Source: Halanaerobium saccharolyticum (lineage in GTDB: Bacteria; Bacillota; Halanaerobiia; Halanaerobiales; Halanaerobiaceae). Taken from it: 63,150 bases of DNA. Position numbers and translations under genes: made by a program. The notes beneath the pieces were generated by a model. It was given only the letters and a program-made list of their open reading frames with translations, made no database searches and had not been told where the DNA came from. The stretch covers positions 42,148 through 105,297 of the forward strand of contig NZ_SNWX01000004.1 of assembly GCF_004362045.1 (NCBI RefSeq), in the 5' to 3' direction. This document shows positions 22,742-41,982 of this stretch, in pieces (the first letter of the stretch is position 1; every line of letters starts with the position of its first letter).

Positions 22742-22775
22742 AGAATCACAAAATGAGCAGAAGGAGGAAGTTATA

Positions 22776-23303
22776 ATGAGAAAAGGTATTAAATTCATTT
22801 TATTTTTAAGCTCTTATACTCCACTGTTTATAATACTCATAATTAAGAACATTAATTTTGATAAATCTTCAATTATAAAAAATAACGTTTTTGTAATTTT
22901 TTTATTCATTTTAATTATAGTTTCTAATTATGCCCTGAAATCAAGTGTTAATCAAATTAGAGATATGGGCCCTAAATCTATTGAGGTTAAAAATGTTTCT
23001 CAAAAAACAGGTGATACTTTAAACTATCTGGTTACATATATCATTCCTTTTATCACTCTTGATTCTAATTCTATTAGAAATATAACTTCTCTTGGAGTTT
23101 TACTTTTCTTTATGGGAATTATTTACATGAACTCTAACCTCATCTATACCAATCCAATATTAAATTTATTTGGTTATAAAATTTATGAGGTTACTGATAA
23201 AAATGATAATTTAATAATTTGTATATCCAAAAAGAATTATATTAAAATTGATAAACCCTTAAAAATAACTAATTTTTCTGGTAATATTTACTTGGAGGGA
23301 TAA
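22776..23303 (+). CDS. kwaA: Kiwa membrane protein KwaA
   Basis: A 175-residue membrane protein with about four hydrophobic segments (near residues 7-25, 35-52, 85-100, 108-125). The NYLVTYIIPFITLDS, GIIYMNSNLIYTNPILNLFGYKIY and ICISKKNY stretches fit the KwaA family. In Kiwa, KwaA sits in the membrane with KwaB and senses phage injection; together they stop late phage gene expression. ATG 22776 follows AAGGAGG by 8 bases; longer forms starting upstream lack a binding site. kwaB starts one base after its stop. Family call is from recognised sequence style and the pairing. Confidence 0.82.
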   Translation: MRKGIKFILFLSSYTPLFIILIIKNINFDKSSIIKNNVFVIFLFILIIVSNYALKSSVNQIRDMGPKSIEVKNVSQKTGDTLNYLVTYIIPFITLDSNSIRNITSLGVLLFFMGIIYMNSNLIYTNPILNLFGYKIYEVTDKNDNLIICISKKNYIKIDKPLKITNFSGNIYLEG

Positions 23304-23304
23304 C

Positions 23305-24264: not shown

Positions 24265-24312
24265 CGAAAAATGTACTACATTATTCTTTGAATTGTGTAC
24301 CAGTTGCCAGTA
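24265..24312 (+). repeat. 48-bp direct repeat, copy B (downstream of Kiwa)
   Basis: Second copy of the repeat at 22509-22556; the two bracket the Kiwa pair exactly. It lies in the leader of the reverse transcriptase gene, where it could also act as a control element. Confidence 0.6.
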
Positions 24313-24347
24313 ATCAAAAATATATTTGTTTTGAGGGAGTTATAATA

Positions 24348-27300
24348 ATGGATATTGACGAACCAGTAGAACAGGCATATAAAAAATTGAAATCTTATAT
24401 TTACTACGATAACACACTTAATATTTTACGGCATAAAATTTCTGAATTTGAGACAGGAGAAGATTTTGAAAAGAAATTGGGAAAAGTCAGTAAAATACTA
24501 AATGATCTAGATTCAGTAGAAGATTTTGCCAAAATCATTGAAGAGTACCAAATAGATAAAACCATTATGCCAAAAGGGATAAGCCTCGAAGATGAATTAC
24601 ATAGTGAAGATGAAGAAAAGTTCATTACTAATGATTTTGAAGCTTCAGGCTATAAAGCTGAGCGGACCAAATATTTAGTTGATGCAGATATAGAAATTCA
24701 TATTATTGCAGTATTATGGGTTATGAAAGTAGGGTATAAATTAGAAAATAATTTCAGTAATAACTCTTATGGTTATAAACTTGAGTTATCAAAAGAAAAT
24801 AATAATCAGATTGCAAAGGGGTTAAAATTATTTAAACCATATTTTTATCAATACCAGGACTGGCGAGATAATGCTTTAGATGCAGCTCAGGCATTAACCA
24901 AAAGAGGAAAAGATACAGCCATTATAGGATTGGATATAAAAGGTTATTTTAATAATGTTGAACTATCATTTGACAAATTGAGACAGGAAATAAAAAATGA
25001 ATTTGGTGTAAATGATGATTCTAATGAAATCATGCTTACAAATTTATTAGAAGAAATTTATAAAGAATATGCTAAATCTATTGGGAAAGAAAATTTTGAA
25101 GGAAAAGGACTTCCGTTACCTATAGGCTTATTATCTTCTTCAGTACTTGCCAACTGGTATTTAAAAGAATTTGATCAGGCAGTAGTGGAAGAAGTCAATC
25201 CCAGTTATTATGGGAGATATGTAGATGATATTTTAATTGTTATTTCTAATCCAATTATAGATCAGAATAAATCATCTCAAAAAACAGCTTTGGAAAAGAT
25301 TATTGAAAAATATTTGTGTGATAATAATATCTTAAATAAATCAGATAAATTAAAGGAAAATCAAGATGCTGAAAATAAAAGCGATGATGATCAAAATAAG
25401 GAAGCTGAATCTGAAAATAAAGAAAAGAAAAGCGAATATCAAATTACTGTTCAAAATGAAGTTGGAGAGCTTGTTTATGACAATCTAGCGATTCAAAATA
25501 AAAAAATAAATGTATATTATTTAAAAGCTGATGGCTCTCAGGCTATACTTGAGAATTTCAAAGAAAATATTAGAAGAAATAGTAGTGAGTTTAGATTTCT
25601 TCCAGAGAATCATAAAATAGAAAACGAATTTAAATTTGAAGCACACTCTATGTTATATGATGACTCGGTTAATAAATTAAATAGTATTAAAGCTTTTCGT
25701 CATAATAAATATAAAGCTTCGGTATATTTAAGCAAAAAAATTTATGCCAGCCGTTTGTGGGATAAAGATAGTAAGGATGCTAAAAATACTGCTGAACAAA
25801 TAATGAAGTTTTTTAAGGGAAAGATATGCCTGGAGTTTCATATACTATGGGAAAAGATTTTTGCCTATTTTATTTTAAAAGAAATGAAATCAGAATTTGT
25901 GGAGTTTTATTCTTATGTGATAAAGCTGATAGATAAACTTTCCTTTGAAGGGGATAATACTCAGGAAAAGAAATTGAAAGAAGATCTGGAAAGGCATTTA
26001 GAAATTGCTGCTGCAATTCCTTTATCTTTGAATCCTGAATTTCTTGATAAGGAAGTAAAAAATAATTTGGTAAAGAAATTGAAATCTGTTGAAGCTGATA
26101 TTTCTGATGAAAACATTAAGCTTTCCGATATTGCTGAAAATATTAGAGAAGCGAATTTAATGCGTCATAATTTAGTTTTTACTCCTCTACTAAATTATAC
26201 GAATCTTGCTCGTGAATCGGAATCATACATTAATTTAACTGAGAAGAATTTACATAAGTATTATGATAATAATTTTAAAGACGAGAAATCAGAAGATATT
26301 GAAGAACAGTTAGAATTTGATCCAAAATTAAACGAATATTCTCCTAGATTTATAAAATTTAATGAATTCAATAATTACTTTATCTTTAAAAACCTGTTTT
26401 TTGGAAACAAAACTGAAGGAGAAGATGTTTTAGACAATTATTTAGAAGAATCTTATGGTGAATTTAAAGAAATAAATGATGAACTAGGAATAAGTATTAA
26501 AGATCAAGATAAATATTTTGAGTTGAAGATTAACGGAGAAAAAGTAAGTAATGTTAAGAATAAAGCGAAGAAAGTTAAAGCAAAAAAAGCACCTTCTTCT
26601 ACCAAAAAGTTTAAAATTAAAGAATTAAAAGTATCAGATGATGAGAGTAGAGAGAAGTTGAATATTGGGGTTGCAAATATTAAATTATCTGAAAATGATT
26701 TCAAGAAAAGTTACCGTAAGAATTATAATTTGAGTGCTGCTAGAAAAGAAAAATTATTCAGGATTCTTAATTTAAGTTATACAGAAAAAGTTAATGGTAA
26801 TGAGTTAGATATTATTATTTTGCCTGAAGTATCTGTACCTCCTGCCTGGTTATCTTTACTAGCTGATTATTCAAGAAGACACCAAAAAGCAATAGTCTGT
26901 GGTTTAGAACATTTTATTAGTAATAATGATACTGCTTATAATTTAATTGTGACTATTCTGCCATTTATGGTTGATGATTATAAATATTCACTAGTTAAAG
27001 CACGAATAAAAAATCATTATTCTCCCGCAGAGAAAGAACAACTAACAGGTAATCATTTAGAGCTGCCCGAACAAAACTTCTGGCATTATGATAAGTTTAT
27101 CTGGCGAGATGTTCATTTTGCCTGTTATAATTGTTACGAGTTAACGGATATTGTTCATCGATCTATTTTTAAATCTGAGGTTGATTTACTAATTGCCTCT
27201 GTTTATAACAGAGATGTAAATTATTTTTCAAATATAGTTGAGTCAGTTTCTCGTGATGTACACTGTTACTTTATTCAGGTAAACAGTTCGAACTATGGAG

Positions 27301-27530
27301 ATACCAGGGTGACCCAACCAAGTAAAACAGAAGTTAAAGATATAATGCGCTTTAAGGGTGGAGAAAATCCAGCCATATTGGCTACTTCAATTGATATTAT
27401 AAAATTGAGAAACTTTCAGTTTGTAAAATATAATTTACAAAAAGCAAGTGAAAATAATTTAAAAAATACTCCGCCTGATTTTAACAAAGAAAAAGTTAAG
27501 GAGAGAATGAGAGACTTTAGATATGATTGA
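24348..27530 (+). CDS. drt1: Reverse transcriptase-nitrilase, DRT type 1 (UG1)
   Basis: A 1060-residue anti-phage protein. The N-terminal part holds a reverse transcriptase: catalytic aspartate in GLDIKGYFNNV (about residue 196), GLPLPIGLLSSSVLANWYL, and YVDD at about 291-294. A lysine-rich linker follows near residue 735-760. The C-terminal part is a carbon-nitrogen hydrolase with the triad Glu in ILPEVSVP (about 827), Lys in SLVKARIK (about 883) and Cys in FACYNCYELTD (about 928), all intact. This fusion defines defence-associated RT type 1. ATG 24348 follows GAGGGAG; an in-frame TTG at 24288 lies inside the 48-bp repeat. Confidence 0.9.
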   Translation: MDIDEPVEQAYKKLKSYIYYDNTLNILRHKISEFETGEDFEKKLGKVSKILNDLDSVEDFAKIIEEYQIDKTIMPKGISLEDELHSEDEEKFITNDFEASGYKAERTKYLVDADIEIHIIAVLWVMKVGYKLENNFSNNSYGYKLELSKENNNQIAKGLKLFKPYFYQYQDWRDNALDAAQALTKRGKDTAIIGLDIKGYFNNVELSFDKLRQEIKNEFGVNDDSNEIMLTNLLEEIYKEYAKSIGKENFEGKGLPLPIGLLSSSVLANWYLKEFDQAVVEEVNPSYYGRYVDDILIVISNPIIDQNKSSQKTALEKIIEKYLCDNNILNKSDKLKENQDAENKSDDDQNKEAESENKEKKSEYQITVQNEVGELVYDNLAIQNKKINVYYLKADGSQAILENFKENIRRNSSEFRFLPENHKIENEFKFEAHSMLYDDSVNKLNSIKAFRHNKYKASVYLSKKIYASRLWDKDSKDAKNTAEQIMKFFKGKICLEFHILWEKIFAYFILKEMKSEFVEFYSYVIKLIDKLSFEGDNTQEKKLKEDLERHLEIAAAIPLSLNPEFLDKEVKNNLVKKLKSVEADISDENIKLSDIAENIREANLMRHNLVFTPLLNYTNLARESESYINLTEKNLHKYYDNNFKDEKSEDIEEQLEFDPKLNEYSPRFIKFNEFNNYFIFKNLFFGNKTEGEDVLDNYLEESYGEFKEINDELGISIKDQDKYFELKINGEKVSNVKNKAKKVKAKKAPSSTKKFKIKELKVSDDESREKLNIGVANIKLSENDFKKSYRKNYNLSAARKEKLFRILNLSYTEKVNGNELDIIILPEVSVPPAWLSLLADYSRRHQKAIVCGLEHFISNNDTAYNLIVTILPFMVDDYKYSLVKARIKNHYSPAEKEQLTGNHLELPEQNFWHYDKFIWRDVHFACYNCYELTDIVHRSIFKSEVDLLIASVYNRDVNYFSNIVESVSRDVHCYFIQVNSSNYGDTRVTQPSKTEVKDIMRFKGGENPAILATSIDIIKLRNFQFVKYNLQKASENNLKNTPPDFNKEKVKERMRDFRYD

Positions 27531-28053: not shown

Positions 28054-29700
28054 CTTATCAAAATAAAAGAAGGAGAACTTAATTTCTGGTTGGATTTTAT
28101 TAAAACTCAAAGTGAGGAAAAAAGAGAGCTTTCTGATAAAATTTTAAATATTGAATCAGCAATTGTAACAATGAGTTTAAAAACTAAGAGTTTTATGGAA
28201 TTTAAACTCAGGCAGAGCTATTTTCAAAATGAGGCTTTTGCTCTCGAAGACAGGCTGGCAGATACAAAAAGAAAAATGGATAGTCTGCGGGATAGACTCT
28301 ATCAAATAAATAATTTTAATGATGATATCTTTGATATTTTAGAAAAATCACTTTCCTACCTCAAAGAAACTGGTGATCCTTATCTGAGAGAAGTTGACTG
28401 TCCTGTCTGTGGTGATTCTCATGAGAGAAAGGCTCTGCTGGGGAAAATAGAAAGGAAGCTAACTCAGGGCAGTAAAAGGGTAAAAGAATTAAAAAAGAAA
28501 CTCTTTCTGGAGAACCAGAAGGAAGAGAAAATAAAAGCCGAGCTGCAGGAGTTGAGTGATCAATTCGCTGAAGAAGTAGATAAAATGATTTCTGAACTGG
28601 AGGCTGAAAAAGAAAGCTTTACTATAAAAATGACAGTGACTAAGGACAGAATTTTAAAAGTAGAAAATGAGATTAAGGTGCTGCAGAGTAAGTTAAATGA
28701 GCTGGATTATTTAAATCAGAATGCTGTTAGAATTATTGACCACTATCAGATTGAGGAGCGGGGATTAAAAGATAATTTATCGAGAAGAATTAACAGGCTG
28801 AAAAATTTAATGATCAATAATTCATTCCTGGAGATCAAAAATACTGAGGAGTTAAAAAAAGAGATATCTGAGCTTTTGGAAAGAAAAGATAGCCTGGCAG
28901 CTGAGTTTAATAAATATAATCTGAAGGCTGATTCCTGTTATCCGGAAATTCTGCAGCGAGAAAAAGAAAGTAAAAATATGCTGGCAGATTGTAAACGGGC
29001 TCAATCAAGGATCAGGAATCTGGAATCAGAACTGGAAAAACAGCAGGAATTGCTGCAGCAAAACAAAGTGAGAAAACAGTTAAAAGAGGTAGAGAATGAA
29101 TTTTAAAAAGCTGCAGCTGAAAGAGAAAAAATCAAAAGAGGACTGGAGAAAGCGGAAAAACTTAAACTGGCTGTGCGGGATGTGGTTGCAGATCTAAATG
29201 ATCAGATTCTTAAGGAACAGGAGGAATTTATAAATAAGATTTTTAAGCGCATTTATCTTCATCCCTTTTTCAGGCAGATCAATTTAAAGACTACTGTCAG
29301 CCGTCAGGGAAGTAATTCTCTTTTGATTGAATGTAAAAACAAAAGTGGAAAAACAATTGTTAATCCAGCTTTTACTTTCAGTAAGGCTCAGGTTAATATA
29401 GTTGCAATTAGTATTTTTCTTTCTATGGCTTTAAGACAGCAGTGCACAAAATTAGATACTATTCTGCTTGATGATCCAATGCAGAGTATGGATGACTTAA
29501 ATATTATTTCTTTTATTGATGTGCTGCGGAGCTGTTCGATGGAGGGGGGAGACTTAAATAAGCAGCTGGTGCTTTCGACTCATGATGATAAGTTTTATCG
29601 GCTGCTTTTGAAGAAGTTTCGTTTTCTTTCTGCTGTGGGCTATTATTTTGAGACTTATAATGAGGATGGGCCCGGGGTGAGGAGCTGGGGGATGGATTGA
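28054..29700 (+). pseudogene. SbcC/Rad50-like zinc-hook ATPase, truncated and interrupted
   Basis: One reading frame holds long coiled coils around a zinc-hook CPVCGDSH (near 28401), then after an in-frame TAA at 29104-29106 continues with the C-terminal ATPase lobe: FTFSKAQVNIVAISIF signature region, Walker B ILLDDPMQSMDD and switch-like STHDD. Both parts share the same frame, so a single nonsense codon splits them. The Walker A half is missing. Codons such as CTG and CTGCAG are commoner than in the neighbours, suggesting separate origin. Probably a dead recombination or defence ATPase. Confidence 0.8.
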
Positions 29701-29878: not shown

Positions 29879-30889
29879 ATGGATATAGAGTTTCACTATT
29901 ATGTTACTTACTTAACGGCTACAAGGGCAGGTTTTAAACCTAAAGATGCAAATGTTTTAGCTTATTCTTCTCAATATGTTGACAACAATGACATACTTTT
30001 TGAAATCAACAAAGGTTCAGATGAACTATATTATGAGAATTATATAAGCCAGACCTTAGATATTACAAAACCACAAAAAGATTTGCTGCGTATATATCCT
30101 TTCTTTCACTTTATTCCAGGAGAAGATAGTAATTATTCTGAGAAAATTAACGAAGATGAAATACCACCTTTAAACACTATTCCCGATAATGTAAATGCTA
30201 ATAAAATGATAGATAAGGCTCTGACAGATAATAATTTATATGAAATAGGTATTGCCTGCCATGCATATTTAGATACCTGGTCCCATCAAAATTTTGTTGG
30301 AATGGAAAATGATTATAATGGATTGGACCATATTTTGCCTAATATAGGCCATGCTGATGCAGGTCATGATCCAGATATTCCTGATAAAGTCTGGGATGAT
30401 ACTCGTTTAAAAAATGCAACTGTCAATAATAAAGATCGTTTTCTAGTAGCAATAGGTCGACTATTCGAGAAGCTATTTAAACATAAAAATAGTGATGACA
30501 AATTATCTAAACTGTCTTCAGAAAAGCAAGAACTGATAGCTGATATAGATGAGGTAATTGAGGAAGGATCTGATAAGGAAGAAAGAATAGGTCTATATAA
30601 AGAACTTGCTTTAAAAGATGAATATGGTGGCCAAAAAATTGAAGATTATAATGAATATTACTGGTTCAATGAGGCAATTAAAGAAGACTATCCAGAAAAG
30701 TATGATTTTGAATACAAAGTGAAAGTTAATTTAAATCACTTATTTTTTAAAGATTATACATGGGATGATCCTGATAATTACCATGATACCCACTGGTTTA
30801 AGTTTCAGGAAGCTGTAAAATTTCATCAGGACAGAATGGAAGGAATATTAAGTTCAAATCTTGAGTTTGTAAGTACAGAAAAGTGGTAA
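29879..30889 (+). CDS. DUF6765-like histidine-rich protein, paralog 1
   Basis: A soluble 336-residue protein homologous to the one at 39061-40137. Shared motifs are an N-terminal FHY(Y/A), AYSSQ(Y/Q)VD, FHF(I/L)P, a core HAYLDTWSHQNF, IGHA and NPDIP or DPDIPDKVW. The ordered His/Asp residues suggest a metal-dependent hydrolase, possibly of the zinc phospholipase C/S1-P1 nuclease fold; that is inference. Activity unknown. It has its own promoter and terminator within the island. Confidence 0.6.
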   Translation: MDIEFHYYVTYLTATRAGFKPKDANVLAYSSQYVDNNDILFEINKGSDELYYENYISQTLDITKPQKDLLRIYPFFHFIPGEDSNYSEKINEDEIPPLNTIPDNVNANKMIDKALTDNNLYEIGIACHAYLDTWSHQNFVGMENDYNGLDHILPNIGHADAGHDPDIPDKVWDDTRLKNATVNNKDRFLVAIGRLFEKLFKHKNSDDKLSKLSSEKQELIADIDEVIEEGSDKEERIGLYKELALKDEYGGQKIEDYNEYYWFNEAIKEDYPEKYDFEYKVKVNLNHLFFKDYTWDDPDNYHDTHWFKFQEAVKFHQDRMEGILSSNLEFVSTEKW

Positions 30890-31054: not shown

Positions 31055-33460
31055 ATGCAGCAGTATAGATCACAAATTAATCTTTTTATAATTTCAATTA
31101 TAGTTTCTATTTTATTATTTTTTCTACTACCGCTAAATATTTGGCTTTATTCAGGCATGTTTTTATTAATCTGGTTTGCTTTAATTTTAAATTTTAAACT
31201 TTATAAAAATATTGAACTTTTTTGTTCCAGCCTAATAATTAGTTTTGGAAATCTTATTGTACTAACGACTTATTTGATTTCTCAACAGCAATTAACTTAT
31301 ACTAATAAGTTTTTATTGTTTTTTGATTTTCTTCTTTTATTTTTTATCTTCTCTATTCTTTATTTTAGGTTTGAAAAAGTAAATTTTAATGCTCAGACTT
31401 TGAAAAGAGAGGTATTATATCCCCAGAGAAAAGAAGACTTAAAACGTCTAATTTACTATTTAGAGAAATTTAATATTATAGGTATTAATGCTCCGTGGGG
31501 AGAAGGAAAAAGCTTTCTTTTTGATAAATTAAAAGAAAAGCACGAGAATAAGTATGAAATAATTGAGGTTGATATTTTAGCTTGTAATTTTGATGAACTT
31601 AGAATCACTTTGATTAAAGAGCTAGAAAATTTAATGTATAAAAACAAAGTTATCTCAAAGTATTCGAGCCGACTTAAAAAGTTAATGAGTAGTTCGAGTA
31701 ATAATTTAATTCAATTCTTAAAGGCTCTCCTGTTTTCAGATGTGGATTCATTTGCTTCTACTATTCATGGATTGAAGAAAGATCTTAAAAAACTAGATAA
31801 AAATATAATTATAAATTTTGAGGATATTGATAGAATTAATAACCGAGAAACAATAATAAAAATTTTTTCACTTTCAGAAAAACTTGCTGCTGATAATATC
31901 AAAATCATTTTTCAAGTTAATGAAAAAGTATTAATTGAGGAAAAAGAATTTAAAGCAATCTATTTAGAAAAATACCTGCAGCATAAAATCAATCTGACTA
32001 AAATCAATTTTTTTGATATTATCGATAATCTTTATGAAAGTGGTAATTATAATAAAGAATTAGTTTTTAAGGAAGATTTTAAATTTTTAAGAACTAGAAT
32101 GAAAAATATTAGTTTTATTGATTTTTTTGATGATTTTAGTTTGAATGGTGAATTATCAATTGAATTTAATAATTTAAATATAAGAAAGATGAAGATATTT
32201 TTAAATGAGATCTTTGCAGCAGTAGAAGATGAGACTCTTGAAGTAGATAAAAGAACGACTATTGCTTTTTTCTTTTTAAAACATTTTTATAGTAATAAAT
32301 TTCGAGAACTTAATTTTAAAGATAATTTAAATAATACATTTACTTTTAAAGTGAATAATGAAGATTTTACTCTTGGGGAATTAATTGTTAAAAGACAGAT
32401 GGAAGAAATAACTCAAGATAATTTTGAAAAGATATTCCAAAAAGAAAACAATAGGGTTAACCTCATTATCTTTAAGCTTTTTGATTATGACTTTGGACAT
32501 ATAAATGTAAAAGTCAATGAAATGATTTCCAATATGGATGCTTCACAAAAAGAAATAAAGAATTTCGATTTTGAACATAAAAATCTCAAAAAAAATAGAA
32601 TGATTAATAAACTATATGCTAATGGTAGATCCCAGTTTACAAATTATGAGAAAGCTGTGGAAATATTTATAGATGAAGTATTAAGTAAAAGAGATAATAA
32701 AGAACAGGAAAAAGGTAAAAAAATGTTTAATAATATTTTATTTCAAAATAATTTGATTGATAATAGAAGTATTTTCAAACTTGGTACAAATGATCAAGCA
32801 GAATTATTTAAAGCTTTTAATGTGGCAGAAAATGTTGCTGAAAATGAAAAAGTAAAGTTGATTGACTTTTATTTTTCTCAAAAGCCGGATAATATTATAA
32901 GTGAGTATTTAATTAGCACTCTTAATTATGTTCAACTCCGGTCAAGAAAAGAATATTTAGCTATTTTAAAACATTTTAATGACTTAAAAATAGAAGGTAA
33001 TTTAAATAGGATTGATTCATTTAGTACATTTTTCAGAAAATATCTATCAGCAATAAGTGAACTGGGATTTTTAGAAACATCTGATTATTTTATGCTGCAT
33101 ACTAATAAAAGTTTAACTAAACAATTTAACATGAAAAAGCCTGTGAAACAAGAACTTAATAAAATAAAAAATAATTTGATTAATATGAAGAATAATTTAA
33201 AAAATAGTCAGGATTTTGATGTAGTTGTTAATGACTACAAAATTATTATTAATTTTGTTAATAAATTAGTAGAATTAATTAGCTGCAATGAAATTTACAA
33301 AGAAAAAAAATATGATAATCCGAAAAAACCTGAATATCTTGAGCAAAATGAGTTTTATAGATTAAAGAAAATTGACTCTAGAGAAAAGCGGGCAGAAGAG
33401 TCAAAAAATAGTTATAAAAAAGGGAAGATTACTGCAATGGAGTTGAATAAACTAATGTAA
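31055..33460 (+). CDS. Membrane-anchored KAP family P-loop NTPase
   Basis: An 801-residue protein. About four membrane helices occupy the first 105 residues. Then comes a KAP-type NTPase with Walker A INAPWGEGKS near residues 144-153 and Walker B NFEDIDR near 254-260, and a long helical C-terminal part without recognisable motifs. KAP NTPases are membrane-associated and several act in phage exclusion. The order of helices before the Walker A differs from the classic KAP layout, where helices are inserted within the domain. It stands alone between other island genes, 165 bases from the upstream gene. Confidence 0.8.
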   Translation: MQQYRSQINLFIISIIVSILLFFLLPLNIWLYSGMFLLIWFALILNFKLYKNIELFCSSLIISFGNLIVLTTYLISQQQLTYTNKFLLFFDFLLLFFIFSILYFRFEKVNFNAQTLKREVLYPQRKEDLKRLIYYLEKFNIIGINAPWGEGKSFLFDKLKEKHENKYEIIEVDILACNFDELRITLIKELENLMYKNKVISKYSSRLKKLMSSSSNNLIQFLKALLFSDVDSFASTIHGLKKDLKKLDKNIIINFEDIDRINNRETIIKIFSLSEKLAADNIKIIFQVNEKVLIEEKEFKAIYLEKYLQHKINLTKINFFDIIDNLYESGNYNKELVFKEDFKFLRTRMKNISFIDFFDDFSLNGELSIEFNNLNIRKMKIFLNEIFAAVEDETLEVDKRTTIAFFFLKHFYSNKFRELNFKDNLNNTFTFKVNNEDFTLGELIVKRQMEEITQDNFEKIFQKENNRVNLIIFKLFDYDFGHINVKVNEMISNMDASQKEIKNFDFEHKNLKKNRMINKLYANGRSQFTNYEKAVEIFIDEVLSKRDNKEQEKGKKMFNNILFQNNLIDNRSIFKLGTNDQAELFKAFNVAENVAENEKVKLIDFYFSQKPDNIISEYLISTLNYVQLRSRKEYLAILKHFNDLKIEGNLNRIDSFSTFFRKYLSAISELGFLETSDYFMLHTNKSLTKQFNMKKPVKQELNKIKNNLINMKNNLKNSQDFDVVVNDYKIIINFVNKLVELISCNEIYKEKKYDNPKKPEYLEQNEFYRLKKIDSREKRAEESKNSYKKGKITAMELNKLM

Positions 33461-33498
33461 GCATGGGATTATAAATTTAGTTGACTAAATTATAAAAA

Positions 33499-33553
33499 GT
33501 TTTATAAAAGCGATAAAACAAAACTTGATTTTTACATTTTTTTACAGTATAAT
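33499..33553 (+). promoter_or_regulatory. Promoter and candidate operator of the SIR2 operon
   Basis: TTGATT (33525-33530), 17-base spacer, TATAAT (33548-33553). Just upstream, GTTTTAT (33499-33505) and ATAAAAC (33513-33519) form an inverted repeat, placed like an operator. The first gene starts 28 bases after the -10 box. Confidence 0.65.
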
Positions 33554-33581
33554 AAATTTAACCAATATTGGAGGTGTTTAA

Positions 33582-35012
33582 ATGTCCTATCATATTTTGC
33601 GTTATGGTACCAATGCTGATAAAAAGTTTATAGATCAAAATAATAAGTATTATGATTTGTTAGCTATTAATGGTAATATGCTTGCTTATACACCGGGAGC
33701 ACTGGCAGGTTTTATCAGAAAAAATTTATTAAATGAATCAGGCAAAGGTTTTTTTATTGATCCTATTACACATAGTTTTCAACACAGCCTGGATAAAATA
33801 AAATCCTACAGTAAAAAAGAAAAGAAACAAACACTAAAAAAATCTATTGAAAATTTAATTGATTATTATGGTGAACCCTTAATAACACATATAAAAACTC
33901 CAGAAAATTCAGAAAAAGAAGATGAAAAAGGCAGACCTGTACGAGCAAAAGATTTTAATGATCATAAAGAAAGCTTTTGTGAAAATGTCATTGATTTTCA
34001 GTTAACTGAAATAAAGAAGAAAAATAAGGAAAAAGGATTTTTAAAGTACCTCGATGCAGATGATCAGAGATTAAATGATTTTGAACCTGATTTTATAACC
34101 CCTCCTTATTTTTATTTAAATGAAATGAGTTATGAAGAATGGCTGGAATTAAACATCGAATTTGCTGAAATAGCTGTGGAAAAATATCCGAAGAGAGATA
34201 TTTTCGTTCAACTTGTAGTTTCTGATGATATATTTATATCCCAGAAAATGCGCGATGAGATTATTGAAAAATATTCTACTCTTGATGTGAAAGGGGTTTT
34301 ACTCTGGATAGACGATTTTAATGAGCACCAGGCTTCTAAAAGTAAATTAGAAGTTTATTTCAATTTTATAAAAGAATTGAGCCAAAATAATCTTGAAATA
34401 ATTAATTTATATGGCAGCTTTTTCTCAATAATGCTAACCGCGTTTGAAGATGAATTAAGTTTTTCTTTAGCGGGTGTTGGACACGGTATGGAATATGGGG
34501 AACATAGAGCAGTAGTTCCTGTTGGTGGTGGTATTCCTTCTTCTAGATATTATTTTTATCCACTGCATAGACGTTTAAGGTTTCAAACCGCTTCAGAATA
34601 CATTAAAAGTCACATTATAGATAAAGCTCAAAGTCCTAAGAAGGAAGATATTGCAGATTTATATTTTACTGAGATCTGTGATTGTTCTAAATGTAAGCAG
34701 ATAATAGGGAAGGATATTGATAACTTCTTTGAATTTGAAAGTACTGAAGTTTATGAATATGAAGTTAAAGGGGTTAAAAGACAGCGCAGTTATGCTGATC
34801 AGGAAACAAAAGAAAATTGTTTAATTCATTATCTTGAATCTAAAGTAGAAGAATTTAAAGAAGTTGAGGAACTGGATCTAAAAAATTTATTAACTATAAT
34901 TGATAATAATTATGAAACTTTTTTAGAATATGGACATCAGGATCAGGAAGAACTAAATTATTTAATTAAATGGAAAACAGTGTTAGAAAGTGGAATGAAT
35001 TTAGATGACTAA
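33582..35012 (+). CDS. Unknown protein, possibly TGT/DpdA-like TIM barrel
   Basis: I do not firmly recognise this 476-residue soluble protein. The C-terminal third has a zinc-like CDCSKC at about 366-371 and a histidine in CLIHYLES near 416, followed by helices, which echoes the CxCxxC...H site of tRNA-guanine transglycosylases and DpdA. Before it are alternating strand/helix segments (VQLVVSDD, GVLLWIDDF, INLYGSF) and a conserved-looking GVGHGMEYGEHR near 296 as in a TIM barrel. The start follows GGAGGTG. Its stop overlaps the SIR2 gene by 8 bases, so the products are coupled. A base-exchange enzyme is a guess. Confidence 0.45.
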   Translation: MSYHILRYGTNADKKFIDQNNKYYDLLAINGNMLAYTPGALAGFIRKNLLNESGKGFFIDPITHSFQHSLDKIKSYSKKEKKQTLKKSIENLIDYYGEPLITHIKTPENSEKEDEKGRPVRAKDFNDHKESFCENVIDFQLTEIKKKNKEKGFLKYLDADDQRLNDFEPDFITPPYFYLNEMSYEEWLELNIEFAEIAVEKYPKRDIFVQLVVSDDIFISQKMRDEIIEKYSTLDVKGVLLWIDDFNEHQASKSKLEVYFNFIKELSQNNLEIINLYGSFFSIMLTAFEDELSFSLAGVGHGMEYGEHRAVVPVGGGIPSSRYYFYPLHRRLRFQTASEYIKSHIIDKAQSPKKEDIADLYFTEICDCSKCKQIIGKDIDNFFEFESTEVYEYEVKGVKRQRSYADQETKENCLIHYLESKVEEFKEVEELDLKNLLTIIDNNYETFLEYGHQDQEELNYLIKWKTVLESGMNLDD

Positions 35013-36249
35013 AAAAATATTTATTTTAGGGGCTGGAGCATCCAGGCCAGCAGGTATTCCGATTCAATCAAATATGATTAATGAGATATTTTCATTAAAT
35101 GAAGATCAACTTCAAGAAAAGAATAAAGAAGATTTAAGTTTTATTGATTCTAAAAATGATCTTTTCTCCCAATTTGCATTGTTTAATAAAAGCAGAAAAA
35201 TCTTTGCCCGATTTTTAATTAAAAATTTTGGTGATATGGATCTTAAAGAAAAAATATTAAAGATAAATGAAAATAGTGAGCAGGAAAACAGTAATTTAGA
35301 AAAAATATGGAATCAAATATTTGATCAACTGATAGAAATTAATATTTCATTAGAGAATATATTTACTATTATTGATAAGGCAATTGGAGAAAACAGTTTT
35401 TTTCAAAATTACAGCATCAATGATCTCAAAAAAGTACAGCTTGCTCTTGATAAATGTCTGATCTATATTTTATCTTATTATACCCCATCTGAGAATCATT
35501 TGTATGAACAAATTTCTGAATATTTTGCAAGTGAAGCCGATTCCGGAAATCAGCCTGTAATAATTTCTTTAAACTGGGATACAATTATAGATAATTTCTT
35601 ATTTAATAAGACTTTTTCCGATGATATTATTGTAGATTACTGTACAGACTGTTATAATATTGATACAGGAAAAGTAATAAATAGAAAAAGTGAAAATAAG
35701 ATTAAATTGTTAAAATTACACGGGTCAATTAACTGGTTAATTTGTAGGAACTGTTTTAAATTATACGCTCAACATGATCAGATTCTAGCTTTATCAACTT
35801 TAATGGATAAAACTGATCAGAATAACTGCCATTTTTGCAGTGAATTGGAGCGCGCAAATGAACTTGAGAGTTCTATAATAACACCAACTTATATTAAAAA
35901 TTTTGAAAACTTACATTATAGGAGAATCTGGCGAGATGCATTTAATGAGTTAGCAAAAGCTGATGAAGTAATTTTTATTGGTTATTCTTTTCCCGAAGCG
36001 GATTATGAATTGAGATATTTATTAAAAAAAGCTATAAAAAAGCAAACAAAGATAAAAGTGATTTTATATAAGACTGATAATCCTGAGTATTATAGTGATA
36101 AGATTAATAATCAAGATCTAGAATTTGTAAGGGGTAGACTTCAACTTCCAGAAAAAAGATACAGCTCTTTTTTTAATAAAAATAATTTGAGGTTTAACTA
36201 TAAGGGCATAAAAGATTTTTTCCAAAAGGGGGAAGCGAAAAATGACTGA
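35005..36249 (+). CDS. SIR2-like NAD-dependent protein
   Basis: A 414-residue SIR2-domain protein. NAD-binding GAGASRPAGIP at residues 9-19, SLNWDTIIDN near 190, the catalytic histidine in LKLHGSINW near 239, a possible zinc ribbon CRNC...CHFC near 246 and 275, and FIGYSFPEADYEL near 323 are present. In defence systems such domains deplete NAD after phage sensing. It overlaps both neighbours, the downstream one by an ATGACTGA overlap. Confidence 0.85.
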   Translation: MTKKIFILGAGASRPAGIPIQSNMINEIFSLNEDQLQEKNKEDLSFIDSKNDLFSQFALFNKSRKIFARFLIKNFGDMDLKEKILKINENSEQENSNLEKIWNQIFDQLIEINISLENIFTIIDKAIGENSFFQNYSINDLKKVQLALDKCLIYILSYYTPSENHLYEQISEYFASEADSGNQPVIISLNWDTIIDNFLFNKTFSDDIIVDYCTDCYNIDTGKVINRKSENKIKLLKLHGSINWLICRNCFKLYAQHDQILALSTLMDKTDQNNCHFCSELERANELESSIITPTYIKNFENLHYRRIWRDAFNELAKADEVIFIGYSFPEADYELRYLLKKAIKKQTKIKVILYKTDNPEYYSDKINNQDLEFVRGRLQLPEKRYSSFFNKNNLRFNYKGIKDFFQKGEAKND

Positions 36250-36841
36250 AAAATTAACTGGTAAAGATATTTTGCTCCTTTTGTTATATTTACCTGGTAA
36301 AACAGATAAGAAAAATGAGCCGATAATTGGTAGAACTAGATTAACTAAAATGATCTATATTTTTAATAAAGAACTGAAAAACAACTTTGATCATCTTGAC
36401 GAATCTACTCTTCCTGATTTTTTTGCCTATGATTATGGACCATTTTCTAAAGATTTATTAGATGACATACACTTTTTTGTTAATATTGATTTTGTAATTG
36501 AAAAAGTAGAGAAACTTCAGCAAACTACTGCTGATTATGAGGAGTCTAAGTATGACTACAATGAAGAAATGGGCTTTGGCAGTGTGGAATCTATGGAAAA
36601 TGATCCTCCCAACTTATATTCTTATAGACTTGCAGAAAAGGGTATTAAATATGTTGAAGAAAATATTTTAGCAAATATAACAGAGCAGCAGAAAAAATAT
36701 TTAATAAAGTTTAAAAGGAAAATTAATACACTATCTCTGGATTCTATTTTAAGTTATGTATATAATAAATATCCTAATGCAGCAGAAAACTCGCTGATTA
36801 GATCTGATTATATAGCAGAAGCAGGTGCTAAAAATGACTGA
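36242..36841 (+). CDS. YwgA/Panacea-like helical protein
   Basis: 199 residues. The N-terminal half (GRTRLTKMIYIFNKEL, FFAYDYGPFSKDLLDDI) looks like the winged-helix/SocA-Panacea type domain seen in YwgA-like proteins, in which a GPxS-like turn follows a helical bundle. Such domains act as antitoxin or adaptor modules. It overlaps the SIR2 gene by 8 bases (ATGACTGA) and the next gene in the same way, so it is part of one coupled unit. Function here unknown. Confidence 0.5.
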   Translation: MTEKLTGKDILLLLLYLPGKTDKKNEPIIGRTRLTKMIYIFNKELKNNFDHLDESTLPDFFAYDYGPFSKDLLDDIHFFVNIDFVIEKVEKLQQTTADYEESKYDYNEEMGFGSVESMENDPPNLYSYRLAEKGIKYVEENILANITEQQKKYLIKFKRKINTLSLDSILSYVYNKYPNAAENSLIRSDYIAEAGAKND

Positions 36842-37280
36842 ATATGAAATTGTAGAAGATTGTTATACTAAATTATTGAATATGGATAATATTAAGGAAG
36901 TACATTTAGAAATACCTTATATGTCAAAGGTTATTGATATGGTAATAATTGAAAATAACAGTAGGATAATAACTATAGAGTTTAAGCTTCAAAACTGGAG
37001 AAAGGCTTTAAATCAGGCTAAAGTTCACAAATATGGAGCAGATGAGGCTTATATCTGTATGCCGGAGCCGAAACAGGGATTTAAAGAAGAATTTATAGAG
37101 TTGTTAAAAAAGAAGGGGATTGGACTTTTTAAATATGATTCAAAACAACAAATTCCTTTTGAAAAAATTGTAGATGCCAGAGAAGAAGCTAATAGATGGC
37201 AGCCGCGGATTGATCTGCTTAAAGAAATGATTGCGAAAGTTAAACTGGCTGCTCAGGAAAATGAAATGGCAGCTGTATGA
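36834..37280 (+). CDS. PD-(D/E)XK nuclease-like protein
   Basis: 148 residues from ATG 36834, which overlaps the previous stop in ATGACTGA; an in-frame GTG at 36825 is less likely. The pattern EIPYMSKVIDMVII followed by IITIEFKLQNWRKALNQA fits the PD-(D/E)XK core (Asp, then E-x-K after a strand) and the following QAKVHKYGADEAYICMP is the usual last strand. It may cut nucleic acid or only bind it. Homologues of this size occur in restriction-like and defence operons. Confidence 0.6.
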   Translation: MTEYEIVEDCYTKLLNMDNIKEVHLEIPYMSKVIDMVIIENNSRIITIEFKLQNWRKALNQAKVHKYGADEAYICMPEPKQGFKEEFIELLKKKGIGLFKYDSKQQIPFEKIVDAREEANRWQPRIDLLKEMIAKVKLAAQENEMAAV

Positions 37281-37300
37281 AATTAAGGAGAGGATTAATT

Positions 37301-37588
37301 ATGCGTACTTTTAAAGAAAGAATTAAAGATATAGAAGAACACTTTGATAATTTAACTATAGAGGAATTTGAAAAGAATATGTATAATGCCGGAGCTTATA
37401 AAATTAAAGCTGCTGAAGAATCTGGCTTTAGACTTTCTTCATCTGAGGAAATTACTCTGGAAACAGATTTGGATTCTTTCAAAATTGAAGATAAAAATTA
37501 TGATGCTTCTAATACTCCGGATATATCTTCGCTTATTATTCCACCTTTAAATATTAATAAATTATTAGATGAAAACAAAAATGAATAA
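37301..37588 (+). CDS. Small acidic protein, paralog 1 of a pair
   Basis: 95 residues from ATG 37301, 10 bases after AAGGAGAGG. It carries HFDNLTIEEFEKNMYNAG in the N-terminal part and ends PPLNINKLLDENKNE. The next gene has the same two motifs, so they are related. No domain recognised. Position at the end of the SIR2 operon suggests an immunity, inhibitor or adaptor role; that is inference. Confidence 0.55.
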   Translation: MRTFKERIKDIEEHFDNLTIEEFEKNMYNAGAYKIKAAEESGFRLSSSEEITLETDLDSFKIEDKNYDASNTPDISSLIIPPLNINKLLDENKNE

Positions 37589-37626
37589 CATTAATTATGA
37601 TATCTGGGTAAGAAAAGGGAGGGTTG

Positions 37627-37842
37627 ATGATGGATAGTTTAAAAGAATTAAAGCAAAATGAAAATTTGGTTATTAATTCAAACAATTTAGAAGAGGAAAT
37701 TGATGCATATTTTGATAATGTATCTAAAGAAGAATTAATAAAGGATTTGAGTGAAGCTGGGATTGAAATGCAGGTTGGACCTGTTCAAATGCCACCAATG
37801 AATATAAATCACTTTTTTGATGAGGAAAAAGAGGACAATTAA
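37627..37842 (+). CDS. Small acidic protein, paralog 2 of a pair
   Basis: 71 residues from ATG 37627 (a second ATG follows at 37630). It has YFDNVSKEELIKDLSEAG and ends PPMNINHFFDEEKEDN, matching the previous small protein in both motifs while the middle differs. It is the last gene before a terminator. Function unknown. Confidence 0.55.
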   Translation: MMDSLKELKQNENLVINSNNLEEEIDAYFDNVSKEELIKDLSEAGIEMQVGPVQMPPMNINHFFDEEKEDN

Positions 37843-37859
37843 ATATTATTTAGATTGTT

Positions 37860-37898
37860 ACTTCTACTGGAAATTATAACTCTGGTGGGAGTTTTTTT
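37860..37898 (+). terminator. Terminator of SIR2 operon
   Basis: ACTTCTAC pairs (with G-T pairs) with GTGGGAGT and runs into seven Ts. Its 3' arm CTGGTGGGAGTTTTTT is shared with other terminators here. Confidence 0.75.
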
Positions 37899-37913
37899 AT
37901 ATGCAAAAATAAA

Positions 37914-38002: not shown

Positions 38003-39010
38003 ATGTCAGATTATCAACCGCAGAAAACTTTTTGTCCTGAGTGCCGAAAGGAAGTTGAGTATCAAATTGAAGATTCAGTAGAAAAAAAAGAAGTACGCGG
38101 TCTGGAGTTTGAATATACCGCTGAAAGAGCTTATTGTAATGAGTGTGGAGCTGAAATTTTTATTCCTGAACTTCATGACCAGAATCTGCAGAAGATAGAT
38201 AATGCTTATAGAGAAAAAGCAGGTATTATTAAAGTTCCTGAAATTAAAGAGATAGTAGAACAGTATAATACAGGTAAAAGACCATTATCATTACTTTTAG
38301 GTTGGGGAGAGACTACATTAACCCGATATTTGGATGGGGATATACCTTCCAAAAGTTATTCTGAGACTTTAAAAAAAGTAAAAGATGATTATGGTTATAT
38401 GAGACAGTTAGCAGAAGAAAATAAAGATAAGGTTTCAGATAAAGCTTTTAAGGGTCTAATAGAAGCTATAAAAGATTTGCAGAATAATGAGCTGAAGACA
38501 GAAAAAAAGATCGATAGTGTAATTAAATATCTACTTAAAGAATTAGGTGAAGTAACACCTTTAGCACTGCAGAAGTTACTTTATTATAGTCAGGGGTTTT
38601 ATAAAACATTTTATGATGAGTTTTTATTTGATAATGATTGTGAAGCCTGGGTACATGGCCCGGTTTATAAAGAAATTTATTTTAAATATAGAGATTATGG
38701 CTATAACCCTATAGAAGATAAAAGCATTAAATTTGAAAATATTAATCTAACAGAAGCAGAAGAAGAACTTTTAGATAGTGTTATTGATAATTTTGGCTGT
38801 TATAGTGCTAAAACACTTGAAAAAATGACCCACTCTGAAAGACCATGGAGATTAACCAGAAAGAATTTAAAGCCGGAAGAAAAAAGTAATGAGATAATAA
38901 GAAAAAATCTTATAGAAGATTATTTTAGGGATGTTAATAATAAGTATCAGATGTTGAATGTGGAAGACATAAATGATTATAGTGAAGAATTATTTGTTAA
39001 AATAAAATAG
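38003..39010 (+). CDS. MqsA-type zinc-finger HTH fused to Panacea (SocA) domain
   Basis: 335 residues from ATG 38003. The N-terminus is a YgiT/MqsA zinc finger (CPEC at residues 11-14, CNEC at 45-48), then an XRE-like helix-turn-helix (LSLLLGWGETTLTRYLDG near 92-110), then a Panacea/SocA domain with LALQKLLYYSQGFYKTF and AWVHGPVYKEIY. Panacea is an antitoxin domain that neutralises different toxins. The strong palindrome upstream fits autoregulation. The only close partner is the DUF6765-like gene 50 bases downstream. Confidence 0.8.
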   Translation: MSDYQPQKTFCPECRKEVEYQIEDSVEKKEVRGLEFEYTAERAYCNECGAEIFIPELHDQNLQKIDNAYREKAGIIKVPEIKEIVEQYNTGKRPLSLLLGWGETTLTRYLDGDIPSKSYSETLKKVKDDYGYMRQLAEENKDKVSDKAFKGLIEAIKDLQNNELKTEKKIDSVIKYLLKELGEVTPLALQKLLYYSQGFYKTFYDEFLFDNDCEAWVHGPVYKEIYFKYRDYGYNPIEDKSIKFENINLTEAEEELLDSVIDNFGCYSAKTLEKMTHSERPWRLTRKNLKPEEKSNEIIRKNLIEDYFRDVNNKYQMLNVEDINDYSEELFVKIK

Positions 39011-39060: not shown

Positions 39061-40137
39061 GTGCAGAAGGATTTTCATTACGCGGCAATTTATGTTTTAT
39101 CTCGTTTGGCTGGTATGAAGAGTGAATATGCAGAAAAAGTAGCTTATTCTTCTCAACAGGTTGATGACGCTGTCTATGATCATGCTTTAAAGTTTGAGGA
39201 TGGGGATATTTTTCATCAAACTCAAACTGCTCATAAGGAACTGAGTTTTATTAAAAGTTCAGATGTTAATGAATCTTTTAATGTTTGGATCCCTTTTCAC
39301 TTTCTTCCGGCAGCTGAAAGTGATGATGTTCGATTAATGACAAAGCCGGAATCTACAACTGTTAATCTTTTGAAAGAGGATATTATGAAATCAGGTAATA
39401 AAAATAATATTTTATATAGATTAGGAATTTTTCTCCATCTTTACGCTGACACTTACAGTCATCAGGACTTTAAAGGTTTTTATGATAGATATAATTTGGT
39501 AGAATTATTAGATGGGGTTGAACATCTTTCAATAAAAGATAAATTTAAAAAATTAGCAACAGAAATAATTCCTGGTGTTTTACCTATAGGTCATGCCCTT
39601 TCAATAAAAAATCCTGATATTCCCTATGCCAGTTGGAAATATAGCAGAAACTCGCAGATGGTGGAAGTTAATAACCTGGAAAAGCGTTTTCTTCCTGCTG
39701 CTAAAAATATTTTTATTTTCTTAAGAAAATTCTTATTGGAAAATGATGAATTTGGTTCGGTAGTTGAGGATGAAAATTTAGAGTTTCGTTTATCAGAGAT
39801 TAAAGAAACTTTAAAATTTAGAGGAACATTGGAAGAAAGATATAAGAACTGGTTAAGTAAAATTCATAATAATTATTTTAAATTTGAGGATTTTGATAGT
39901 ATCGATGAAAATTTGAATTATAATGACCGTGAGTGGTTTAAAGAGGCTGTAGAAGTAAAAAAATGTCCAAAAATATCTATAGAAGGATTAAAGCAAAGAG
40001 CGTATAATTATAATAAATTTTATAAAAAAGATAATTTTGATAATGCTGACTGGACTTTATACATGAAAGCAGCTGCAGAGCATAAGTATAAAGTGATACA
40101 TGAGATTTTACCGCAGGCTGGGTTAAATGTAGGATAA
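39061..40137 (+). CDS. DUF6765-like histidine-rich protein, paralog 2
   Basis: 358 residues, starting GTG 39061. It is homologous to the protein at 29879-30889: DFHYAAIYVLSRLAG, KVAYSSQQVDD, FHFLPAAESDD, HLYADTYSHQDF, IGHALSIKNPDIP. The central loop between the histidine motif and IGHA is longer here. As the gene right after the Panacea antitoxin, it could be the toxin partner, but no known toxin motif is visible. Confidence 0.6.
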   Translation: MQKDFHYAAIYVLSRLAGMKSEYAEKVAYSSQQVDDAVYDHALKFEDGDIFHQTQTAHKELSFIKSSDVNESFNVWIPFHFLPAAESDDVRLMTKPESTTVNLLKEDIMKSGNKNNILYRLGIFLHLYADTYSHQDFKGFYDRYNLVELLDGVEHLSIKDKFKKLATEIIPGVLPIGHALSIKNPDIPYASWKYSRNSQMVEVNNLEKRFLPAAKNIFIFLRKFLLENDEFGSVVEDENLEFRLSEIKETLKFRGTLEERYKNWLSKIHNNYFKFEDFDSIDENLNYNDREWFKEAVEVKKCPKISIEGLKQRAYNYNKFYKKDNFDNADWTLYMKAAAEHKYKVIHEILPQAGLNVG

Positions 40138-40194
40138 CCTCTGCTGTAACTAGATTATTGTAATAGTCAAATAGTATTTTATATGTTAGCAATT

Positions 40195-40230
40195 ACTCTC
40201 GCTGGATTTTAAGTTTCTGGCGGGAGTTTA
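40195..40230 (+). terminator. Terminator after DUF6765 paralog 2
   Basis: ACTCTCGC (40195-40202) pairs with GCGGGAGT (40220-40227). Member of the recurring hairpin family. Confidence 0.65.
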
Positions 40231-40291
40231 TGTATAGAGTAATTTGATATTTAGACTCCATTAGAATATAATATTTAACTTTATTTCCAAA

Positions 40292-40321
40292 TTATTCTAT
40301 GATATACTTTAAGTAGAATAA
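40292..40321 (+). promoter_or_regulatory. Promoter/operator of darT
   Basis: TTATTCTA (40292-40299) and TAGAATAA (40314-40321) form an inverted repeat that encloses the -10 box TATACT (40303-40308). The same sequence, with the same 14-base centre, recurs at 58598-58627 before an Rpn-family pseudogene. Confidence 0.65.
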
Positions 40322-40342
40322 AAATTATAAGGAGATGGGGTT

Positions 40343-41068
40343 ATGTATAAAGATGATTATAAAAAATTAAAGGCTTTTATTAATCAACTTAAGGTTAAAT
40401 ATAACTTTAAAGGCTTATATCATTTTACTGATTTCAAAAATTTAAATAGCATTATTGAAACAGGTTGTTTAAAAAGTAGGGCTGAATGTCAAAATAGTGA
40501 GATTGATTTTTTAGATGCAGCCAATGAGGATGTTATTGAACATACTAAAAGAGATATAAAAAAATGTGTAAGGTTTTATTATAAAGAAAAAACCCCAACT
40601 TTATATAAAAATGAAGGAATTAAAGTGGATAATGTGAAACCGCATATTCCCCTGCCAGTCTATTTATTATTTGATTATGAGTTAATATTATTAGAAAACA
40701 CAGTATTTGCGAGTTGTAATGCAGCATCCGCTTATGTCAATTTTGGAAAAAATTTTGAGTTTTTTAAGACAATGGACTGGGATAAAATTTTTCATCGAGG
40801 ATCATTGCATATCGAAGATACCCCATTAAAAAGAGAAATTATTAGTAAACGGCATGCTGAATTATTAGGACTACAGGATATTTCACTAAATTATTTAAAT
40901 AAAATATTTTTTAGAAGCAAGGCAGATTACAAAAGAGCAATTAACTTATTTGGGGAAAATGATAAATTAGAGGTTGACGCCAGCTTATTTAACTGCAATA
41001 ATAACTATATAGAAGATTATAAATTAGAAATTTATAACAGACTCAGAAAACAATTGATATTAACTTAG
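40343..41068 (+). CDS. darT: DarT-like DNA ADP-ribosyltransferase toxin
   Basis: DarT puts ADP-ribose on single-stranded DNA bases from NAD, blocking replication and protecting against phage. The NAD-binding GLYHFTDFKNLNSIIETGCLKSR-type start, VRFYYKEKTP and the catalytic-glutamate region KRHAELLGLQDI near residue 175 are visible. At 241 residues it covers the core fold. The start follows AAGGAG. Around 41050 the reading frame may be broken, because a 73-codon frame continues right after it in the -1 frame. The antitoxin darG is downstream. Confidence 0.85.
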   Translation: MYKDDYKKLKAFINQLKVKYNFKGLYHFTDFKNLNSIIETGCLKSRAECQNSEIDFLDAANEDVIEHTKRDIKKCVRFYYKEKTPTLYKNEGIKVDNVKPHIPLPVYLLFDYELILLENTVFASCNAASAYVNFGKNFEFFKTMDWDKIFHRGSLHIEDTPLKREIISKRHAELLGLQDISLNYLNKIFFRSKADYKRAINLFGENDKLEVDASLFNCNNNYIEDYKLEIYNRLRKQLILT

Positions 41069-41274
41069 AATTTAACAGAAGAAATTATAAAGATTATACT
41101 CATAGAATTATAATTAAAGATTTAGAACCTGGCAACATAGTTTATGATAAAAAGATTAATTTTACGAATGGAACTGATTTAAAACGTCATGGTAAAATCA
41201 AAAATTTACCTAATGAACAATTAAGATTTGAATATTATATGAATGACATATTAAGTGTAGAGGAGACTATTTAG
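41038..41274 (+). other. Possible -1 frame C-terminal extension of darT
   Basis: From 41038 to a TAG at 41274 the -1 frame of darT is open and encodes a protein-like stretch (THRIIIKDLEPGNIVYDKK, GTDLKRHGKIK, LRFEYYMND) with no start codon or ribosome binding site of its own until ATG 41240. It overlaps the end of darT by 31 bases around AGAAAACAATTG, so either a frameshift mutation or programmed slippage could join them. Confidence 0.5.
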
Positions 41275-41286
41275 GATGGTGAGATT

Positions 41287-41982
41287 ATGATAAATTACTA
41301 TGAAGGAACAGTGTTTAATACTCCTGCTAAAACTATAGTTAATACAGTAAATTGTGTTGGAGTAATGGGTGCAGGTATAGCCCTGGAATTTAAACTTAGA
41401 TTTCCTGAAATGTATAAAGACTATAAAGATAAATGCAATAAGAATTTAGTTCGAATAGGTAGACCCTATATTTACAGTCATAGTGATGATTTGTGGATAC
41501 TAAATTTTCCAACAAAGAAACACTGGAGAAATAAGTCAGAAATAGAATGGATTGAAGCAGGTCTTAAATATTTTAGTAAAAACCATTCTAAAGTAGAAAT
41601 GAAATCAGTTGCTTTTCCAAAATTGGGTACAAATAATGGAGGCTTAGACTGGGAAGCAGTTAAGGATCTAATGGAAAAATATTTATCTAATCTGGATCTT
41701 GATATTTATATATGTTTAAATGAGAAAAATGAAGCAGAGGGTACAGAAAAGAAAATGCTTGATCTTGTTAATAAAGCTGACCGTGAACATTTAATTAAAG
41801 AGGTTGGTATTAATGCAAAACAGGCGAAAATAATAGTGGATAAGCAACCTGTTCAGAGGTTTTGGCAGATAAATAATTTTAATGGGATAGGAAAAAAATC
41901 TTACGAAAAGTTATTTAGATACTATTATCAATTAGTTAAAGGCCAAAAAAGAGAATTAGTTCAAATGGCTTTAGAAATGTAA
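41287..41982 (+). CDS. darG: DarG-like macrodomain antitoxin
   Basis: DarG removes ADP-ribose from DNA and binds DarT. The macrodomain core is clear: IVNTVNCVGVMGAGIALEF at about residues 18-36 and KSVAFPKLGTNNGGLDW near 115. The last 75 residues form a helical domain (HLIKEVGINAKQAKIIV, NNFNGIGKKSYEKLF) that would hold the toxin. At 231 residues it is between the short and long DarG forms. Confidence 0.88.
   Translation: MINYYEGTVFNTPAKTIVNTVNCVGVMGAGIALEFKLRFPEMYKDYKDKCNKNLVRIGRPYIYSHSDDLWILNFPTKKHWRNKSEIEWIEAGLKYFSKNHSKVEMKSVAFPKLGTNNGGLDWEAVKDLMEKYLSNLDLDIYICLNEKNEAEGTEKKMLDLVNKADREHLIKEVGINAKQAKIIVDKQPVQRFWQINNFNGIGKKSYEKLFRYYYQLVKGQKRELVQMALEM

Follow-up and report, generated by a model that had tools for sequence, protein, structure and literature searches.

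A mobile four-gene cassette with a SIR2 protein in a defence island of Halanaerobium saccharolyticum, a candidate anti-phage system

A stretch of 63,150 nucleotides from Halanaerobium saccharolyticum (assembly GCF_004362045.1, contig NZ_SNWX01000004.1, positions 42,148 to 105,297 of the forward strand), called the window hereafter, carries a run of closely packed genes including one for a SIR2 protein, and the locus raises the question of which of these genes belong together and what they do. A first reading, made from the sequence alone (the sequence-only reading), had grouped six genes as a single, perhaps undescribed, system of defence whose effector would be an NADase, an enzyme that degrades nicotinamide adenine dinucleotide (NAD+); the genes were those for a protein resembling tRNA-guanine transglycosylases (TGTs), a SIR2 protein, a Panacea-like protein, a PD-(D/E)XK-type nuclease and two small paired proteins. 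For the first four of the six (genes 1 to 4) this is well supported, because they recur together in other genomes, have exact common borders and lie in defence-island or prophage-like settings, while the two small proteins are excluded. The four-gene operon is a real, self-contained, mobile unit, called the cassette here, and on balance it is probably an anti-phage system of the abortive-infection type.

The four genes lie on the forward strand at 33582-37280 and are joined, as first noted, by overlaps of 8 bases, three in number: ATGACTAA at 35005-35012 between genes 1 and 2, and the identical ATGACTGA both at 36242-36249 (genes 2 and 3) and at 36834-36841 (genes 3 and 4). In a blastn comparison, a single block of 3766 bp (window 33516-37281) corresponds with 95.9% identity to positions 3159-6924 of a locus of Halanaerobium congolense DSMZ 11287 (L009), and it ends abruptly on both sides, the flanking genes being different. 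The right end, 37281, is 1 base past the stop codon of gene 4 and the left end is just 5' of a promoter-like site. In H. congolense the cassette is located between a DUF6765 gene and DarG, in a different slot of a like defence island, where it occupies the place which DarT has in the window (window 40145-41269 is unmatched there). In addition, a decayed remnant in another genome (G012) has a near-identical left border, 33520, directly after the stop codon of another gene. All four genes are open in both intact Halanaerobium copies and their proteins are conserved; the ratios of nonsynonymous to synonymous substitution rates (dN/dS) between the window and the H. congolense copy are 0.086, 0.214, 0.131 and 0.095 for genes 1 to 4, respectively, and purifying selection acts on each of the four.

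The exact borders also bear on the other elements that had been assigned to the operon, namely a promoter with an inverted repeat, a single terminator and the two small genes. A promoter-like site does lie inside the block, but such sites occur in the window at chance frequency (27 found versus 27.0 expected in the consensus scan). The inverted repeat at 33490-33507 was rejected as an operator, being upstream of the start of the conserved block at 33516 and absent from H. congolense, and no terminator candidate passed the scan near 37860-37900. The small genes (37301-37588 and 37630-37842) were rejected as parts, since they lie beyond the cassette end and none of the other loci read was found to have them next to the cassette; they encode acidic proteins without family matches and follow after a gap. 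A KAP-like gene at 31055-33460 is likewise outside the cassette and was rejected as a part.

When gene order was searched in other genomes, the same genes were found together elsewhere, far beyond chance. Ten intact loci carry a relative of gene 1 with matching neighbours, and six of them, in three Halanaerobiales genomes, two distant Bacillota and one prophage-like contig, have all four genes, in three gene orders. The order TGT-like, SIR2, Panacea-like, nuclease is that of the window, of H. congolense and of the Halanaerobiales metagenome-assembled genome Tobar18m-G9 (L010/L006, about 50% identity); the order Panacea-like, nuclease, gene 1, SIR2 is that of the two distant Bacillota (L018 and L019); and the IMG/VR contig L023, the only further gene 1 relative found by viral-contig scans, has two convergent pairs, in which gene 1 and SIR2 point towards the nuclease and Panacea-like genes, with a phage-type repressor on one side and a serine recombinase on the other. 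A three-gene core of gene 1, the Panacea-like gene and the PD-(D/E)XK gene without a SIR2 of the window type is found in three Haloarcula loci and in the Arthrobacter plasmid pSI-1. In Haloarcula marismortui pNG400 and Haloarcula sp. JP-L23 the core has no clear effector, in H. sinaiiensis pHsi540 (P0009) the gene after it encodes a SIR2 from a different subfamily, with PDC-S25 as the best PADLOC match, and in pSI-1 a membrane protein is encoded between the Panacea-like protein and the nuclease. Because the core occurs with another SIR2, with a membrane protein or with no clear effector, the effector place appears to be exchangeable. Furthermore, the cassette sequences are as distant as 20-25% identity, and gene 1 identity between members goes down to 20-23%, so the association is old. 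The cassette is rare and patchy, being present in 4 of 398 genomes of the phylum sample, the remnant included, and intact in 2 of 12 Halanaerobium genomes. Near the G264 cassette (L019), an HD-domain-like protein with a small neighbour (2286-4245) and a separate protein of 831 residues with a SIR2-like C-terminal part (10091-12586) were read from the sequence.

Gene 2 matches Pfam SIR2_2 with 30.1 bits (6.1e-7), above the cut-off of 24.5, and its best PADLOC match is the Argonaute-associated Aga_SIR2 (5.1e-13); its sequence also weakly matches a solved SIR2-like chain, 8w9l (0.0088). The NAD motifs that the sequence-only reading had recognized are present: GAGAS (residues 9-13) and LNWD/KLHGS, with N190/D192, H239 and a cysteine ribbon of C247, C250, C275 and C278. 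The alignment shows that GAG, N190, D192, H239 and the ribbon are kept in divergent SIR2 members, the catalytic Asn and His among them, and gene 2 probably encodes an NADase. SIR2 enzymes of a like kind deplete NAD+ in defence (DSR, ThsA of Thoeris and SIR2 with short Argonautes). The SIR2 protein is taken as the effector because its place is the exchangeable one, as that of an effector would be; therefore, the constant trio of genes 1, 3 and 4 would sense and control.

The PD-(D/E)XK-like and Panacea-like genes are both present in the operon, as had been noticed. In gene 4, D35, E49-x-K51 and Q61, the PD-(D/E)XK signature, are invariant in six divergent orthologues, and weak matches to Cas4_II and HSDR_N were obtained; since the nuclease active site is intact, cutting of nucleic acid probably contributes to sensing or to execution. 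Gene 3 of the window reaches 12.7 bits and its Haloarcula orthologue, named a SocA-domain protein by NCBI, 25.4 bits against PF13274 (cut-off 25.7), and the alignment makes them one family; in PADLOC gene 3 matches PDC-M19A (1e-8). It may restrain the complex, in the manner of Panacea antitoxins (PMC8832971).

The same gene invites another explanation, namely toxin-antitoxin-like stabilisation, in which the SIR2 protein and/or the nuclease would be the toxin, the Panacea-like protein the antitoxin and gene 1 an accessory, and the unit would be selected for maintenance of its element, phage defence being secondary. Panacea domains are promiscuous antitoxins (PMC8832971), and the plasmid and prophage-like locations and the mobility of the cassette agree with such a role, but gene 3 is invariably accompanied by genes 1 and 4 and not by SIR2, the four-gene size and the defence-island setting do not favour it, and gene 3 of the window is under the Pfam Panacea cut-off; we regard this explanation as unlikely. 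Panacea toxin-antitoxin loci (SocA/DUF4065; PMC8832971) resemble the cassette in having a Panacea-like protein beside potentially toxic enzymes, whereas the cassette is a four-gene unit with genes 1 and 4 as constant partners, and neither SIR2 nor a transglycosylase is mentioned in the main text of PMC8832971.

Kinship of gene 1 with the TGTs is plausible, not proven: the structural comparison of the full-length model speaks for it, while sequence profiles and a trimmed model do not. Gene 1 has no convincing family in Pfam, NCBIfam, PADLOC or PHROGs; at E<=1, PF01702 (TGT) matches none of nine members and neither the DpdA model NF041059 nor any NCBIfam family matches gene 1. PDB searches with sequence and profile gave nothing, and hhalign comparisons of the gene 1 family with TGT and with phage DpdA were not significant. 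An AlphaFold2 full-length model built from four sequences has a mean predicted local distance difference test score (pLDDT) of 51.7 and a predicted template modelling score (pTM) of 0.53, and its strands and helices at about 165-240 alternate and are modelled with confidence. With Foldseek by itself, this low-confidence model had no significant match; when VIA-align 2 was applied to the top Foldseek chains, all 50 of the 50 matches listed were TGTs (Z 8.7-9.4, 196-223 residues aligned). For the model trimmed to residues 1-350, the matches were a mixture of TIM barrels (best Z 7.5, TGT 6.7), among which TGTs are not set apart. The models thus make a TIM-barrel-like fold likely.

The CxCxxC motif pointed out earlier is at residues 366-371 of gene 1 and is found in 8 of 10 members; it is CxxxxC in L010, by loss of the second cysteine, and absent from the Arthrobacter protein. 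The invariant H416 follows it, and the histidine of the TGT YHN motif is without a clear counterpart. A distant member, L072, has CTCPYC...KKHFLYRRNE as compared with CDCYVC...IRHLLKRNE of TGT, and the CxCxxC piece outscores 100 of 100 column-shuffled controls against TGT, over 15 columns only. D60-P61, E307 and H416 are invariant in all 10 members, and D60 and E307 may be equivalent to the catalytic aspartates of TGT.

Two further explanations depend on what gene 1 does. According to one of them, gene 1 is a repurposed TGT-family sensor or scaffold that has a modified protein terminus or some other molecule as its ligand and does not exchange bases; Cap10 of type IV CBASS, a cyclic-oligonucleotide-based anti-phage signalling system, is a precedent (PMC11996544), and the cysteine losses in L010 and Arthrobacter and the lack of deazaguanine supply genes fit it, but the invariant D60, E307 and H416 in 10 divergent members look like an active site and the operon has no QueC and no cGAS/DncV-like nucleotidyltransferase (CD-NTase); this explanation is quite improbable. 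According to the other, a modification-restriction system, gene 1 exchanges or marks a base of host DNA, DNA without the mark is cut by gene 4, and SIR2 serves as a suicide effector in reserve. DpdA enzymes of the TGT family put 7-deazaguanines into DNA (PMC6884629) and the nuclease is an invariant partner, as this would require; against these points stand the absence of base-synthesis genes from the operon and of full-length QueC from five carrier genomes, the lack of a DpdA model match and a unit without an ATPase or helicase, and we hold it to be very unlikely.

If the cassette acts against phage by abortive infection, the TGT-like, PD-(D/E)XK and Panacea-like core would bind and process nucleic acid and would probably recognise or alter a base or a tRNA/DNA feature that is changed by infection, gene 1 either exchanging a base or, like Cap10, binding a modified ligand. 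The Panacea-like protein probably keeps the complex or the effector inactive; upon infection the core would free SIR2, NAD+ would be hydrolysed and the cell would halt before phage is made. The comparisons establish the four-gene unit, its mobility and recurrence, the conserved catalytic residues of SIR2 and nuclease and the purifying selection; that the cassette defends, that SIR2 degrades NAD+, what genes 1, 3 and 4 do and in which sequence these steps follow are inferred. Several points weigh against this proposal: the fold of gene 1 is taken from low-confidence models; SIR2 is dispensable in some versions, as the core loci without it show; a toxin-antitoxin or plasmid-maintenance role would look alike; and no full-length QueC was found in the five carrier genomes, only partial matches (<=32 bits, about 60-95 of 210 positions), so that 7-deazaguanine chemistry of gene 1 would be without an obvious supply, which speaks against reliance on home-made 7-deazaguanine. 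If the proposal is true, the cassette is a defence system with an unusual part, a transglycosylase-like protein whose constant partners are a nuclease and a Panacea-like protein and which is spread over bacteria and archaea; it then becomes possible to test directly whether base-exchange enzymes serve as infection sensors that fire NAD-depleting effectors.

Among known systems, those with SIR2 effectors (DSR1/2, ThsA of Thoeris, SIR2-HerA and SIR2 with short Argonaute) share a SIR2-like domain with conserved Asn and His, but the cassette has TGT-like, Panacea-like and PD-(D/E)XK partners instead of an Argonaute, HerA or a TIR-domain partner, and no Argonaute is among the genes of the loci read, in contrast to the short-Argonaute SIR2 system (SPARSA). 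Type IV CBASS (QueC-like Cap9 and TGT-family Cap10; PMC11996544) has a TGT-family-like protein in an immune operon, as the cassette may have, whereas the cassette has no CD-NTase or QueC-like gene and none of its four genes matches a PADLOC CBASS model. The Dpd system and phage DpdA likewise have a TGT-like protein, possibly paired with restriction functions, but the cassette has no DpdA-model match, no preQ0 genes and other partners. By the tests made, therefore, the cassette is not a Dpd, type IV CBASS or short-Argonaute system, and most likely it would work like the SIR2-effector abortive-infection systems with an apparently undescribed set of partners. This gene set was not found in the databases used, with defence systems up to the PADLOC version searched, or in papers with open access.

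The pairing of genes 1 and 4 may extend beyond the cassette. The gene 4 nuclease profile has matches in 18 of 398 Bacillota genomes, and several of these nucleases adjoin a protein kinase (Pkinase, 1e-27 to 1e-34; nearest PADLOC models PD-T4-6 or mad6); the kinase loci also carry a protein of about 400 residues with a DPQ motif that is weakly linked to gene 1 (hhalign E 0.0012, one comparison). In L072, the gene immediately after a gene 1 relative (5e-10) is a relative of the nuclease. These loci suggest that a gene-1-like protein and a PD-(D/E)XK nuclease are a recurrent core with exchangeable partners. A broad, undescribed, modular immune class, in which TGT-like base exchange on tRNA or DNA by this core would be the sensing or licensing step and the partner place would be filled by Panacea and SIR2, Panacea and a membrane protein, or a protein kinase, is a tentative and rather doubtful extension. 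The putative three-gene loci of nuclease, kinase and gene-1-like DPQ protein are L073, L074, L077 and L070, where the third (DPQ) protein has no Pfam or convincing PADLOC name.

The defence island of the window contains Kiwa, a UG5-nitrilase reverse transcriptase, an LmuB remnant and DarTG in addition to the cassette (Table 1).

Table 1. Features of the cassette and of the surrounding defence island in the window
Feature	Position	Strand	Evidence
Mobile cassette (promoter region and exactly four overlapping genes)	33516..37281	+	blastn vs H. congolense
Promoter-like site, TTGATT-17-TATAAT	33525..33553	+	consensus scan; within conserved block, kept in H. congolense
Gene 1, 476 amino acids, TGT-like	33582..35012	+	9- and 10-member alignments, structure comparison
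Gene 2, 414 amino acids, SIR2 protein, probable NADase effector	35005..36249	+	Pfam, PADLOC, alignment
Gene 3, 199 amino acids, Panacea/SocA-like, probable regulator or adaptor	36242..36841	+	orthologue alignment
Gene 4, 148 amino acids, PD-(D/E)XK-type nuclease	36834..37280	+	active-site motif in alignment
Kiwa, KwaA (22602) and KwaB (23305)	22602-24243		PADLOC 4e-29 and 2.5e-28
UG5-type reverse transcriptase fused to nitrilase domain (defence-associated reverse transcriptase, DRT)	24288-27530		PADLOC 3e-245
LmuB (Lamassu), two pieces, apparently decayed remnant	28090-29700		PADLOC
DarT and DarG homologues	40343-41982		

Two DUF6765 proteins are also encoded in the island, at 29879-30889 and 39061-40137 (Pfam 1e-71 and 2.5e-79, respectively), the second gene adjoining one for an MqsA-SocA fusion at 38003-39010. 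Moreover, a polysaccharide gene pair is duplicated in the window, 1-2311 and 12450-14760 being 93.9% identical over 2313 bp.

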